This document shows positions 9,565 through 32,918 of a DNA stretch of 33,279 bases, one piece after another. The first letter of the stretch is position 1. Every line of letters starts with the position of its first letter. Under the pieces are notes generated by a model. The model made no database searches. It was not told where the DNA came from and saw only the letters and a list, made by a program, of their open reading frames with translations. The DNA comes from Sphingobacteriales bacterium (GTDB lineage: Bacteria > Bacteroidota > Bacteroidia > Sphingobacteriales > Sphingobacteriaceae). The stretch is taken from assembly GCA_004292865.1 (NCBI GenBank), contig RDXP01000122.1, positions 1 to 33,279 on the forward strand, read 5' to 3'. The position numbers and the translations under genes were made by a program.

Positions 9565-10314
9565 TTATTTTTTAAGTAATGTTTCCATAAGTTTGGTAGC
9601 AAATACAAACTCGTTAAGTTCTTTATTATCGGTAGCGGTAATTTCTTTATTAGAGCCTTCCCACCATTTTTGCCCTTGGTGTAAAAATATAATATGCTCG
9701 CCTATACCCATTACCGAATTCATATCATGCGTTACCACAATGGTAGTAATATTATTTTCGATGGTAATTTCTTGTATCAATTCATCAATAAGAATAGAGG
9801 TTTTAGGGTCCAGGCCCGAGTTTGGCTCATCACAAAACAAATATTTGGGGTTCATGGCAATGGCTCGGGCTATGCCCACACGTTTTTTCATCCCACCCGA
9901 AAGCTCGGCTGGGTAAAGCTTATTTTTGCCTGCTAAGTTTACCCGTTCCAATACAAAATTTACACGGTCTTTTTTTTCGCTTCTAGGCATATCGGTAAAC
10001 ATATTTAGCGGAAACAGGATATTTTTTTCTACCGACATTGAGTCGAACAAGGCCGAACTTTGAAACAACATCCCAATCTCTTTTCTAATATCAATTCTTT
10101 CCTCAAACGATAATGAAGTAAAATCTCTACCATCATATACCACATTACCGGCATTAGGTTCATGCAATCCTACCATACATTTCATCAAAGTAGTTTTTCC
10201 CGAGCCCGAGCCGCCAATAATAAGCGTACTTACACCAGGTTTAAAACTGGCACTTATGCCTTTTAAAACTTCGTTTTCGCCAAAGCTTTTTCTAATATCT
10301 TTAATATCTATCAT
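9565..10314 (-). CDS. ABC transporter ATP-binding protein, MlaF-like
   Basis: A 249-residue ABC ATPase of the Mla/Ttg2A type, which drives phospholipid trafficking between the two membranes with an MlaE-type permease. GGSGSGKTT is Walker A, LSGGMKKRVGIARA is the signature with the Mla-like MKKRVG form, and YLFCDEPNSGLDP is Walker B. I start it at ATG 10314 because MIDIKDIRKSFG is a normal ABC N-terminus. The start overlaps the mlaE-like stop as ATGA, so translation is coupled. No MlaD-type MCE substrate-binding gene is in this window; it must lie elsewhere. Confidence 0.9.
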   Translation of the reverse strand: MIDIKDIRKSFGENEVLKGISASFKPGVSTLIIGGSGSGKTTLMKCMVGLHEPNAGNVVYDGRDFTSLSFEERIDIRKEIGMLFQSSALFDSMSVEKNILFPLNMFTDMPRSEKKDRVNFVLERVNLAGKNKLYPAELSGGMKKRVGIARAIAMNPKYLFCDEPNSGLDPKTSILIDELIQEITIENNITTIVVTHDMNSVMGIGEHIIFLHQGQKWWEGSNKEITATDNKELNEFVFATKLMETLLKK

Positions 10315-11045
10315 AATAATAGTTGTGCTATAATATAATCGGCAGCTAAAATGGCAATGCAACTTATTACTACTGCCTTGGTGCTCGATTGGCCTACCTC
10401 CAATGCGCCACCATTGGTATAAAAACCTTGGTAAGCCGATACCGTAGTAATAATAATGGCAAAAACTACCGCTTTAACCATGGCAATAGTTACCGTAAAT
10501 GGGTTAAAATTAGTGGTAAGGCCTTGTATAAATTCGGCTGCGGTAACAGCTCCCGATGCCGTACCTGCCAAGTAACCACCTGTAATACTTAAAAAAATAG
10601 AGATTATTACCAGCATAGGTATCATCATTACGCCTGCCGCAACCTTGGGCAATATCAAATAACCTGGGGCATTTATACCCATTATTTCTAGTGCATCTAT
10701 TTGTTCGGTTACCCGCATAGTGCCTATTTGCGAGGCTATGCTGGAGCCTATTTTACCCGCCAGTACCAGCGAACATATAGTTGGGCTAAGTTCTAAAATG
10801 GTAGAATCGCGGGTAATACCGCCAATAACCGATTTGGGTATTAAATCGCTAACCAGCTGAAAAGCAGTTTGTACTGTTGTAACCGCCCCAATAAAAACCG
10901 AAATAATGCTGATAATACCTAGCGAGCCTAAGCCAATATCAACCATCTCCCTAAAAATTTCGGCTTTGTAGATGCTGAATTTCTCGGGCTTCCTAAAAAC
11001 AGCTTTTAATAATAATATATACTTGCCAAAATGATAAAATAGCAT
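10311..11045 (-). CDS. ABC transporter permease, MlaE-like
   Basis: A 244-residue integral membrane protein of the MlaE/YrbE family. After a short amphipathic N-terminus (KPEKFSIYKAEIFREMVDIG) come about five membrane helices. The conserved segment GSSIASQIGTMRVTEQIDALEIMGINAP, with the E-Q-I-D-A-L-E core, identifies the family. The MlaF-like ATPase follows with a 4-base overlap. Together they should form the inner-membrane part of a phospholipid or lipid transporter. The gene is first in its operon and lies next to a MITE-like repeat. Confidence 0.92.
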   Translation of the reverse strand: MLFYHFGKYILLLKAVFRKPEKFSIYKAEIFREMVDIGLGSLGIISIISVFIGAVTTVQTAFQLVSDLIPKSVIGGITRDSTILELSPTICSLVLAGKIGSSIASQIGTMRVTEQIDALEIMGINAPGYLILPKVAAGVMMIPMLVIISIFLSITGGYLAGTASGAVTAAEFIQGLTTNFNPFTVTIAMVKAVVFAIIITTVSAYQGFYTNGGALEVGQSSTKAVVISCIAILAADYIIAQLLL

Positions 11046-11090
11046 AACAAAAATTTTTTTAAAAATAAGATTTTTTATTGATTACATTTA

Positions 11091-11293
11091 TTAATACCCG
11101 AGTTACAATGAATAAAACATATTTTTATAATTTTGAGAATGATTTGGGCGTTACCTGCCTGCGCAGGCAGGTAACACGCTTTTCACTACCTGCTTGCCAG
11201 CAGGCAGGCCGTTGCAATTGTTAACGCACTATAACAGTAATAAACTTGTTTACAGTAAATTACACCATAGGTTAATATTCATACTCATATTAA
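11091..11293. mobile_element. MITE-like element, copy 1 (family B repeat)
   Basis: About 203 bp, non-coding. The left end ACCCGAGTTACAATGAATAA (from 11096) matches, when the other copy at 16304-16587 is reversed, that copy's right end (ATCCCGAGTT then ATTATTAAAC). The own right end (11271-11293) is an imperfect inverted version. The core is GGGCGTT (11146), a perfect 24-bp palindrome (11151-11174), ACACGCT, a second near-palindrome (11189-11208) and TTAACGC (11221-11227). No reading frame is inside. It occupies most of the 272-base gap before the SDR gene. Confidence 0.6.
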
Positions 11294-11317
11294 CCATAAA
11301 AACTTAATAAATAAAAT

Positions 11318-12019
11318 ATGAACGTTTTAATAACCGGCGCAAGCAAAGGAATAGGTAAAGCAATAGCCATTGAAATGGCTAAAAATGGCCATAATTTGGC
11401 ACTTTGTGCCCGCAATATACAGGATTTAGAAGTCCTAAAATCTCAAATACCTCAAGCCCATAAGCAACAAATAATTTTTATAGGTGCCTGCGATTGTGGC
11501 GTAAAAACACAGGTAAGCGCATTTACACAATTGGCCGCAAAGGCATTAGGAAATATCAATGTATTGGTAAATAATGCAGGTATATTTAAACCATCTTTTA
11601 TATTAGATGAGGCCGATGATATTTTGCTTTCGCAGATACAAACCAACCTACTATCGGCCTATTATTTTTATAAAGAGATAGGTAAAAACATGCGTAGCAA
11701 CGGTGCTGGGCATATTTTTAATATTTGCTCGGTAGCAAGTATCGAAACTTTAGCACATGCCGGTTCGTATTGTGTAACAAAAGCAGCCATGCTAAGTCTT
11801 AATAACGTAATGCGAGAAGAATTAAAAAAATATGGGGTAAAAGTAACCGCAATATTGCCTGGAGCTACCTTTACACACTCGTGGGAAGGCTTAACTAATG
11901 TACCCAAAAACTTTGTACAGCCACAAGATATAGCCATGGCTATTACCCATACTTTACAAATGAGTGCCCATGCCTATACCGAGCAAATTATTATTAAATC
12001 GCTTTTAGTACAATCGTAA
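11318..12019 (+). CDS. SDR family NAD(P)-dependent oxidoreductase
   Basis: A 233-residue classical short-chain dehydrogenase/reductase, FabG-like. TGASKGIG (residues 6-13) binds the cofactor; ARN after strand two suggests NADP(H). NNAG is at 85-88, and the catalytic Ser138, Tyr151 and Lys155 (YCVTK) are all present. The substrate is unknown; the late segment ILPGATFTHSW is usual for the family. The PspC gene follows after 24 bases, so these three rightward genes may be transcribed together. Confidence 0.9.
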   Translation: MNVLITGASKGIGKAIAIEMAKNGHNLALCARNIQDLEVLKSQIPQAHKQQIIFIGACDCGVKTQVSAFTQLAAKALGNINVLVNNAGIFKPSFILDEADDILLSQIQTNLLSAYYFYKEIGKNMRSNGAGHIFNICSVASIETLAHAGSYCVTKAAMLSLNNVMREELKKYGVKVTAILPGATFTHSWEGLTNVPKNFVQPQDIAMAITHTLQMSAHAYTEQIIIKSLLVQS

Positions 12020-15739: not shown

Positions 15740-16303
15740 CTGGAATCTTAGATTTATTGATAACTCTGGTTAATACATAACTCGCCCCGACTTCAAATAG
15801 AATTCTTAAATCTAAATTATTAAAGCAACATTGATGTAATTTTTATAAACTATTTTAGGCAGATGGTAATTTCATTTGAAAAATCTACCGATGTATCTTC
15901 TACGAACTTTATTTGGATTCTTCGTTAAAAACTGTGGAATAAAATTAAATTTTACTCCCATTAAACAGGTCTGCGATTAGGGACGACCTAGCCTGCCTGC
16001 GCATGCAGGCTGTTGTTTGGAGTGGGATGCCGATAAAGTCAAAATTAAAAATTAAAAAAGTTTAAACGCTTGAAAGGTTTTTGAATTTTACCTTTTGAAT
16101 TTTTAATGCGCCTCGAATTGCGCCGTTAAAAATTTATTGAGCATACCCGACAAAACAACAGCAAGCCTTGCCTGCCTGCCCGGACAGGCAGGATTTTTTG
16201 TTACTTTTTCATCAAGGAAAAAGTAATTAAAAAAAAATGCCTATTAAAAATATTTGATTAAAGGTAAAATATTACCCACACAAAATTGAGAAGTAATCTA
16301 TAT
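15740..16303. other. Intergenic region with hairpins and no supportable gene
   Basis: About 560 bases between the rpsF promoter and the MITE-like element. All frames are broken by stops. It holds a one-mismatch palindrome GCCTGCCTGC/GCATGCAGGC (15991-16010), a stem CCTGCCTG/CAGGCAGG (16171-16192), and immediately after it a perfect 10-bp stem TTACTTTTTC/GAAAAAGTAA (16201-16226) followed by an A-run. It may be a graveyard of decayed mobile sequence. Confidence 0.6.
16201..16226. repeat. Perfect 10-bp stem-loop
   Basis: TTACTTTTTC (16201-16210), loop ATCAAG, GAAAAAGTAA (16217-16226). It is preceded by TTTTTT and followed by A-rich sequence, so it could stop transcription in either direction, but no gene ends nearby. 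Confidence 0.5.
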
Positions 16304-16587
16304 TAATTACCTGCTTCTAATCAATAAAAATTCTATTTATTATAACTATGATTATAATTTGGGCGTTTTAACACGCTGTGCGTTATATCTTTTTATTTAT
16401 TGCCCCTCCCCCTAGCCCCCAAAGGGGGAAATGGGGACAATAAATAAAAAGGATGCCTGCCGGCCAGCAGGCGAGCCACTGCCCTGCCTGCGCAGGCAGG
16501 CATCGTTAACGCTCTAAAATCGTAAATAATATTGATTAACAGCAAATTACACTAAAGTTTAATAATCGAACTCGGGATAATATTAAT
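16304..16587. mobile_element. MITE-like element, copy 2 (family B repeat)
   Basis: About 284 bp, non-coding. Left end ACCTGCTTCTAATCAATAAA (16309 on) aligns with the left end of copy 1 at 11096. Right end GTTTAATAATCGAACTCGGG (16557-16576) is its inverted counterpart. The core starts GGGCGTT (16361), then ACACGCT, a long stem with TTTTTATTTATTGCCCC and its complement, two GC-rich palindromes (16455-16472, 16483-16500), and TTAACGC (16506-16512). The segment after the core (16513-16576) aligns over about 65 bases with the matching part of copy 1. Confidence 0.6.
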
Positions 16588-20071: not shown

Positions 20072-20203
20072 GGGCGTTACCTGCCTGCGCAGGCAGGTAA
20101 CACGCTTTCGGCTATATCTTTTTTCTCCCTAGCCCTCCCCCTAGCCCCCGAAGTGGGAAACTGGGCTAGGGAGAAAAAAGGATACCGCTGCAATCGTTAA
20201 CGC
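20072..20203. repeat. Family B palindromic repeat, copy 3
   Basis: GGGCGTT, then a perfect 24-bp palindrome (20077-20100) identical to that at 11151-11174, then ACACGCTTTCGGCTATATC. A long stem follows (TCTCCCTAG / CTAGGGAGA, extended by T/A runs), then GGATACCGCTGCAATCGTTAACGC-type ending (TTAACGC at 20197-20203). The first 35 bases match copy 1 almost exactly. It fills half of the 264-base gap between nth and the adenosyltransferase. Confidence 0.75.
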
Positions 20204-20278
20204 CATAAAGAGCGTGAATATCCAACTTTAAAAAATAAAAACATATTGCCCTTGCTAATGTTTAACTAAAAAATAAAA

Positions 20279-27420: not shown

Positions 27421-27523
27421 CTGCGTACCTAAACCCGATAGCAGCAAATAGCCCTCATTTTACCCTTTGGGGATTTTGCTAAGGGTGGGGAAAATAAGGA
27501 CTATTGCGTATAGCGGGGCTAGC
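27421..27523. repeat. Dispersed palindromic repeat, family C (copy 2)
   Basis: Starts CTGCGTACCTAAACCCGATA and ends GCGTATAGCGGGGCTAGC. The reverse complement of these ends occurs at 2642-2723. The interior has CCCTCATTTTACCC paired loosely with GGGTGGGGAAAATAAGG, giving a long hairpin. Confidence 0.7.
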
Positions 27524-27560
27524 TTTATTTATAAAATGCTAGCTTTGATTTTCCGAAAAA

Positions 27561-32018: not shown

Positions 32019-32033
32019 TGCTTTTTTTTTAGC

Positions 32034-32200
32034 TGCGAGCTTTCGGGCTTCGGGCAGCGGGCTTCTTGTTTAATTTGTTAGGGCTGCGGGCTTTCGGGCA
32101 ACGGGCTTTCTAAAATAGATAAAAAGCCCGTGGCTCGAAAGCCCGTTGCTCGAGGCAATAAATCCCGAGGCTCGAAAGCCCGTTGCTCGAGGCCAATTAT
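32034..32200. repeat. GGGCTTTCGGGC-type hairpin repeat, copy 1
   Basis: Low-complexity block of units such as GGGCTTTCGGGCA(A/G)C and their complements GCCCGTTGCTCGA. The part GCGGGCTTTCGGGCAACG...CTTT at about 32087-32111 and AAAAGCCCGTGGCTCG... at 32122-32155 fold into an imperfect stem of about 24 bp. It is next to the leuA-like start. A closely related copy is at 32803-32918, and shorter units recur at 32333-32385. Confidence 0.75.
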
Positions 32201-32205
32201 TTTCA

Positions 32206-32327
32206 GGGCGTTCCCCGAAAAGGGGCGGGCTATTCGCTCATAGCTTTTTTTTATTGCCCTCCCTCCAACCCCCAAAGGGGGAGAATGGGCAATAAAAAAA
32301 AGGCTATCCGCTGCTATCCCTAACGCA
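32206..32327. repeat. Family B palindromic repeat, copy 4
   Basis: GGGCGTT (32206-32212), CCCC/GGGG mini-stem, CGGGCTATTCGCTCATAGC, a long stem with TATTGCCC...GGGCAATA containing CCCCCAAAGGGGG, then GGCTATCCGCTGCTATCCC and TAACGC (32321-32326). Same layout as copies at 16361 and 20072, without the CCTGCCTGC palindrome. It is embedded in the hairpin repeats between the monooxygenase-like gene and the leuA-like gene. Confidence 0.7.
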
Positions 32328-32491
32328 TTTGGCAGTGGGCTTTCGGGCAGCGGGCTTCGGGCAACCAGCCTCGGGCAACCCTCCATTTAATTTAGCCCAT
32401 TAGTCATTATGAGCATTTTTAATATGACTGAATTCGGTTACATTAAAAAAAGATTAAGCATTTACTCCCATATTCACATCAAAATATGCAC

Positions 32492-32782
32492 TTAATTTAC
32501 CATCGTATAATGTTCAACAATAGGAAAAGGTGAATAATAATGATGGAGCAATTTTTTCCATTCGATATACTGTTCCGATTGCCTAAAACCAATGGTATGG
32601 CTTTCTAAATTTAGCCAGTTTACCAACAATATGTATTTACTTTCTACTTCCATACATTTTTTTAAGCTATGGTTAATATACCCATCAATCGAACTTATAT
32701 ATTGAGCAGCAATTTTAAAATCACTTTCAAAATTTTGCTCTTCGCCTTTAATTATATGCAATATTGCTACTTCTAAAATCAT
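32492..32782 (-). CDS. Antibiotic biosynthesis monooxygenase (ABM) fold protein
   Basis: A 96-residue single-domain protein of the ABM/dimeric alpha-beta barrel type: MILEVAILHIIKGEEQNFESD, then IDGYINHSLKKCMEVESKYI and LLVNWLNLESHTIGFRQSEQ followed by a last strand. Such proteins include haem-degrading and quinol monooxygenases and many of unknown role. I chose ATG 32782 over a TTG four codons earlier. It lies between leuD and the leuA-like gene, with repeats on both sides, so it is probably carried on the leu transcript. Any role in leucine synthesis is unknown. Confidence 0.78.
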   Translation of the reverse strand: MILEVAILHIIKGEEQNFESDFKIAAQYISSIDGYINHSLKKCMEVESKYILLVNWLNLESHTIGFRQSEQYIEWKKLLHHYYSPFPIVEHYTMVN

Positions 32783-32802
32783 ATTTTTTTTCAACTATTG
32801 GC

Positions 32803-32918
32803 TTCGAGCTTTCGGGCAGCGAGCCACGGGCTTTCTACAATCGGCAAAAGCCCGAGGCTCGAAAGCCCGTTGCCCGTGGCTTTTCGCCCGAAGCCCAATT
32901 GCCCGCAGCCCGAGGCTA
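32803..32918. repeat. GGGCTTTCGGGC-type hairpin repeat, copy 2
   Basis: GCTTCGAGCTTTCGGGCAGC... and CACGGGCTTT at 32801-32835, an 11-base loop, then AAAAGCCCGAGGCTCG... at about 32846-32880, folding into a long imperfect hairpin, followed by further CCCGAAGCCC units. It fills the gap between leuD and the monooxygenase-like gene up to the leuD stop. Confidence 0.75.

Follow-up and report, generated by a model that had tools for sequence, protein, structure and literature searches.

The window, which is the whole stretch of 33,279 nucleotides analyzed here (contig RDXP01000122.1 of a Sphingobacteriales draft genome), carries four GGGCGTT...TAACGC units, starting at 11146, 16361, 20072 and 32206. 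The first two are the cores of longer, gene-less elements, referred to as copy 1 (at 11.1 kb) and copy 2 (at 16.3 kb); features are listed in Table 1. According to Pfam, copy 1 has an MlaE permease gene on its left and a short-chain dehydrogenase gene on its right, and copy 2 lies between the genes for ribosomal protein S6 and a PRA-CH/PRA-PH (HisIE-like) protein. Both copies are placed between divergent genes, the expression of which they could alter. No ORF of at least 80 aa is found inside either copy (193 bp and 269 bp).

An earlier note, made from the sequence alone, aligned the left ends of the two copies at 11096 and 16309, and the sequences are indeed present at these positions (ACCCGAGTTACAATGAATAA from 11096 and ACCTGCTTCTAATCAATAAA from 16309). 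The right end of copy 2, GTTTAATAATCGAACTCGGG, finishes at 16576, and its reverse complement, CCCGAGTTCGATTATTAAAC, corresponds, apart from an additional base and several substitutions, to the inverse of the copy 1 left end that had been described. The likeness reported past the palindromic core, after TTAACGC, extends along the whole right arm, over which the two copies align. The first element had been placed at 11091-11293; an element does lie there, with true bounds of 11095-11287, and the span first given also covers the whole right TATTAA and some of the left one. One end is worn in each copy: the right terminal inverted repeat (TIR) of copy 1, in which the terminal GGT is missing, and the left TIR of copy 2. 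The left TIR of copy 1 starts with ACCCGAGTT at 11096. The flanks of copy 2, TAATT and TAATA, are probably a worn 5-bp target duplication.

As DNA, the window copies fold better than shuffled sequences (z -4.2 and -10.3), and a clean copy of the family, L176, does not do so clearly (z -0.99). The better folding of the window copies is probably due to their extra GC palindromes. Next to the 16.3-kb element there is another dispersed repeat, some 300 bp long (15919-16246, with blocks CATTAAACAGGTCTGCGATTGGGG... and AAAATTTATTGAGCATACCCGACAAAACAACAGCAAGCC...), which has many copies in genome G004 and several in G006.

Table 1. Positions of the two MITE copies, their flanks and cores, with units used for comparison.
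Feature	Position	Strand	Remarks
Left target-site duplication, copy 1	11089..11094	none	TATTAA (5-6 bp); present once at the corresponding empty site of G016
MITE copy 1, 193 bp	11095..11287	+	Present in the window, missing at the same site in G016; arms alignable to 17 copies found in other genomes
Core of copy 1	11146..11227	+	GGGCGTT...TAACGC; GC-rich CCTGCCTGCGCAGGCAGG palindromes replace the usual middle
Right target-site duplication, copy 1	11288..11293	none	TATTAA, from sequence
Left flank of copy 2	16304..16308	none	TAATT; four of five bases as in right flank TAATA
MITE copy 2, 269 bp	16309..16577	+	Left TIR diverged; right TIR near-consensus (16557-16577)
Core of copy 2	16361..16512	+	GGGCGTT...TAACGC; CCCCCTAGCCCCCAAAGGGGG hairpin and GCAGGC palindromes
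Right flank of copy 2	16578..16582	none	TAATA, from sequence
Comparison unit, not a MITE: Flavo-1 core of the same type as the MITE cores	20072..20203	+	No MITE-arm match; Rfam 20094-20208, minus strand, 49.2 bits
Comparison unit, not a MITE: second-type Flavo-1 unit, CCCCGAAAAGGGG...ATCCCTAACGC	32206..32326	+	No arm match; Rfam 32219-32329, minus strand, 44.1 bits
Flavo-1 copies of G073	L300, L316, L320, L355, L356, L358		Longer repeat unit unlike the IS982 MITE

Ends, arms and target duplications of the family

The family has a TIR of about 20 bp, ACCTRAGTTCGATTATTAAAC, and a target duplication of 5 bp. A genome-wide search for the ends, as the earlier note had proposed, gives 29 matches to the TIR 20-mer CCTAAGTTCGATTATTAAAC in the window's own genome (G000, 2.23 Mb) with up to 3 mismatches, and none to the reversed control. 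A near-identical TIR pattern, with up to 2 mismatches, is found in nine of 60 genomes, the window's own included. Over the same 60 genomes the reversed TIR matches once, in G024, which has no real TIR.

The flanks of the units in the window's own genome fall into two sets, one with common left and right arms and one without. The arms are AT-rich, about 40-50 bp on the left and 65 bp on the right. Arm profiles made solely from 29 elements of other genomes give 15.2 bits (left) and 62.9 bits (right) on the 16.3-kb copy, compared with at most 11.3 bits (left) and no match (right) on 18 control cores of other genomes of the genus. The control cores come from 13 genomes, with five rows from MITE-bearing genomes excluded (L228, L229 twice, L230 and L231), and two of them (L216 and L233) belong to G010, which bears TIR-bounded elements elsewhere. 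With thresholds of 12 bits (left) and 10 bits (right), which were set after the scores were known, 22 of 37 type-A cores of the window's own genome pass, and none of its 10 type-B cores or of the 18 control cores does so. The 11.1-kb core failed the type filter and is therefore outside the 37. Some cores of the same genome retain just part of one arm. Some core matches in other genomes of the genus extend towards the left arm (for example G017:C29, query 12-87); seven such places were fetched and five gave a core, none of which scores as an arm (best 8.8 bits).

Target-site duplications, the presence of which had also been put forward as a check, were sought in 41 inward-facing TIR pairs of MITE size, with identical copies collapsed, although G000 C160 and L335 seem to represent a single insertion present in two genomes. 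The 5-bp flanks are identical in 15 pairs, differ by one base in 14 and by two or more in 12. When the left flank of each element is paired with the right flanks of other elements, 5.1% are identical and 22.3% differ by one base. Insertion sites are AT-rich, often TATTA, TAATA or TTATA. The 41 pairs include L139 (1330-1520, G002). This MITE, 193 bp long, has the IS982 ends of the family and is flanked by TAATA on both sides, and its interior is unrelated; thus, IS982-type ends can carry other DNA.

The site of copy 1 is empty in the congener G016, which has both neighboring genes (MlaE permease and short-chain dehydrogenase) and in which window positions 10311-11094 and 11288-12019 are adjacent and overlap by one TATTAA. 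This empty site is bounded by the TIRs and not by the core. G004 is also without copy 1, with 29 bp between the flank matches. In G006, a worn copy is found at the site orthologous to 11.1 kb, beside a 346-aa ORF (L342, C135:8200-9900). Thus, the copy 1 insertion is older than the split of G000 and G006, and is not recent. No clean orthologous empty site was found for the 16.3-kb copy; the interval is 181 bp in G006, compared with 977 bp in the window, and its boundaries cannot be aligned. A search for an empty site of the armless 20.07-kb core gave flank matches on separate contigs in both G006 and G004, and a match on one side only in G016.

An IS982-family insertion sequence with the same ends

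The TIR search also leads to elements of about 1 kb that have the same ends as the MITEs. Ends of the ACCTGAGTTCGATTA... type are seen on IS982 copies in G014, G003, G005, G016 and G036, as well as on MITEs. In G014, four copies of 1034 bp carry an open frame of 319 aa, read stop to stop, which matches NCBIfam IS982 with 268.7 bits (cut-off 130) and Pfam DDE_Tnp_1_3 with 241.9 bits. Three more copies in G014, of a second type, have an open frame of 299 aa, and a frame of 300 aa is found in G005. The G003 copy carries an internal stop, and the G016 and G036 copies are degraded. Where both ends of IS copies were examined, the 5-bp flanks are identical in 10 of 11, the exception being the G016 copy. 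Because TATTA recurs, mispaired IS flanks agree in 45% as well (5 distinct copies), which gives the IS duplications less weight than the MITE duplications. IS copies flanked by TATCA, TATGA, TACTA and TAATA also match on both sides.

A full-length parent transposase with the same ends, which the earlier note had named as a thing to look for, is found in related genomes, while the window's own draft assembly holds a 205-aa fragment only, reaching the end of contig C81 (a contig that overlaps C208). No transposase at E <= 1e-10 is seen in G004 or G006, which are rich in copies; this absence is weak as both are fragmented drafts. For these reasons a parent acting in trans within the window's own lineage is a presumed one. 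Likeness between IS and MITE is limited to about 20 bp of the ends, and this very IS is therefore a candidate ancestor of the MITE. The likely parent, judged from its ends, is an IS982-family element of about 1 kb. The candidate IS, its ends and its target preference can be used for annotating MITEs in related genomes.

The description of a non-autonomous element of 200-280 bp with TIRs, rather than a REP-type hairpin, is borne out by the TIRs, the target-site duplications, the IS with the same ends in related genomes and the empty site of copy 1. It is hardly credible that only a palindromic core (REP or Flavo-1 hairpins) is repeated here and that the outer likeness is chance in AT-rich DNA. 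In the window's own and in related genomes, many units do consist of a core with no arm match, and flanks rich in AT are easily aligned; however, the 29 TIR matches against none in the control, the excess of target duplications, the empty site bounded by TIRs and the same ends on IS982 copies all argue otherwise, and for the arm-bearing copies this reading is refuted. The finding that the earlier note had named as fatal to its proposal, that copies share the core alone, is true of a different set of units, the Flavo-1 cores at 20072-20203 and 32206-32326, which have no arm match.

A mover other than IS982, namely a different transposase with ends resembling those of the IS982 element, is very unlikely. 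Such a transposase would fit the failure to find an IS982 transposase in G004 and G006 at the above cut-off, and the TIR being the sole part that MITE and IS have in common. Against it are the near-identical 20-bp ends and equal 5-bp duplications of the IS982 copies, and the single Y1 transposase found in the window's own genome, which has no adjoining Flavo-1 match. In the favored IS982 scheme, the transposase would recognize the approximately 20-bp TIR and move the MITE in trans, and insertion at AT-rich sites would duplicate 5 bp; no cellular function of the MITE would be needed.

A REP/RAYT origin was also considered and rejected: the one Y1_Tnp match in the window's own genome, C67:23321-23662 (L056), has no Flavo-1 match beside it. 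The DHIH, WQ and YIKNQKQHH motifs of the L056 transposase resemble those of HuH subclass 1.2 as outlined in parts of PMC6006769, and CCCAGCCCACGGTT...AACCGTGGG palindromes lie upstream of its gene. REP elements with RAYTs, in the portions of PMC6006769 and PMC3733652 consulted, are like the MITE in being short, palindromic, dispersed and intergenic; unlike them, the window MITE has TIRs, 5-bp target duplications and a DDE-type parent.

The Flavo-1 core and its distribution

Inside the MITE lies a variant of Flavo-1 (Rfam RF01705), which is known as an orphan 'sRNA' of Bacteroidetes and is listed among the most abundant bacterial sRNA families. Neither this identity of the core nor the IS982 family of the parent had been seen in the earlier reading. 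Flavo-1 scores above the gathering score (42 bits) inside the element in 7 of 19 MITE loci scanned, and also in MITEs of the window's own genome (for example C160 with 54.0 bits and C192 with 47.3 bits). The match in copy 2 (16365-16477, minus strand) has 21.8 bits and is below that score, and the core of copy 1 gives no Rfam match of its own. There are many Flavo-1 units without these arms, two of them in the window. Little covariation is seen in an alignment of 19 copies (both sides changed in 2 of 30 pairs, covariation term +0.89).

Some further observations concern the cores and their surroundings. A weak Flavo-1 match, below the gathering score, is found at 27427-27524 of the window (plus strand, 27.2 bits). 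At 32029-32916, short GC-rich units (AAAGCCCGTTGCTCGAGGC and its inverse) form arrays on either side of an ORF with an ABM domain, beside an armless Flavo-1 unit. In L166, L172, L164 and G000 C116:2426, a GGGAGTTTATCCTGACAAAGGAAGGGC-like module replaces part of the Flavo-1 stem, which suggests that hairpin modules are exchanged within cores.

With a clean 225-bp copy as the query, matches are found in 17 of 60 genomes, all of the window's genus; about 13 candidates were scored per genome, and the counts are therefore lower bounds. Full-length or near-full-length matches occur in G000, G004, G006 and G016, and in the others the matches are chiefly to the core. G010 too has TIR-bounded elements with the core, and TIR-bounded Flavo-1 elements are seen in five genomes of the genus. 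Core matches are present in 17 of 18 genomes of the genus, and 10 of the 18 have no TIR at up to 2 mismatches. The exact right-arm pattern is found in 15 stretches of the GTDB contig collection, all from two Sphingobacteriales MAGs, a result that may leave out records close to the window's own genome.

Across the class, Flavo-1 is above the cut-off in 8 of 40 genomes, the window's own included. In five of the eight, flanks were inspected by eye at 23 loci. In G045 and G051 the copies finish at GCGT...ACGCCC and no common flank was seen past that point, and those of G057 have a short tail alone in common. In G073, which belongs to a different family of the class, about 22 bp to the left of the Rfam model (GTTTGAAACT...) are common to six of eight copies, and about 35 bp to the right of the model are common to several of the eight aligned copies. 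In G069, about 30 bp on either side are common to the two Flavo-1 loci. Neither these flanks nor those of G073 are the IS982 arms. Thus, Flavo-1 is not always naked, and can sit in other, longer repeats.

From the ends, duplications and cores taken together, both window copies are very probably old members of a non-autonomous MITE family with a Flavo-1-type interior, mobilized in trans by an IS982-family transposase. In its proposed history, two IS982 ends would have captured a pre-existing Flavo-1 unit in an ancestor common to a few of the genomes of the genus. This is a simpler history than loss of arms, because armless cores occur more widely and only a few genomes have the composite. The converse, that Flavo-1 in the genus was originally the armed element in full and that armless cores lost their ends without any capture, is improbable. 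It would account for the cores of the window's own genome that keep part of one arm, and Flavo-1 does lie within longer repeats elsewhere, as in G073 and G069. However, the flanks in those two genomes are not IS982 arms, more than half of the 18 genomes of the genus are without the TIR although nearly all match the core, and none of the type-B units bears arms.

More broadly, it is conceivable, if rather doubtful, that Flavo-1 is a mobile palindromic DNA unit that was captured between IS982 ends in one Sphingobacteriales lineage, giving a dispersing composite, and that it belongs to different, longer dispersed units in other Bacteroidota (as in G073). At least in the genus, many copies of Flavo-1 ride in a transposon, so that how many there are, where they lie and which way they point can be an outcome of transposition, with no need to invoke regulation.

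Relation to known elements

The Cardinium endosymbiont belongs to the Bacteroidota. Its MITECca01 is described, in the part of PMC9769881 consulted, as an IS982-derived MITE of about 240 bp without a gene, the copies of which are mostly intergenic, and which has ends in common with its IS982-family parent ISCca4, present in the same genome as intact copies. IS982-derived MITEs are thus an already known kind of element. MITECca01 and the window MITE are both gene-less, share their ends with an IS982-family IS and come from Bacteroidota; the IS and the ends themselves differ. The sections of PMC9769881 seen mention no Rfam or Flavo-1 core for MITECca01, whereas the window MITE family has a Flavo-1 core.

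The Flavo-1 RNA motif (RF01705) was presented in 2010 as a candidate RNA, with no mobile context described in the relevant part of PMC2864571. In the Flavobacterium psychrophilum transcriptome, according to the portion of PMC9723704 available, Flavo-1 matches are indistinctly sense or antisense to transcribed regions, and many are outside them. The accessible parts of PMC2864571, PMC9723704 and PMC9029176 state neither a function of Flavo-1 nor a link to transposons. A Flavo-1 core inside an IS982-derived MITE was not found among the matches listed in the literature searched (IS982 with MITE; subscription journals are mostly outside). What is a candidate RNA in the text seen of PMC2864571 is, in the window's family, the interior of a transposon. 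The Coxiella elements QMITE1 and QMITE2, described in excerpts of PMC10969869 as MITEs that give rise to small RNAs, likewise tie a MITE to a small-RNA annotation, in another organism and with other elements as described there.
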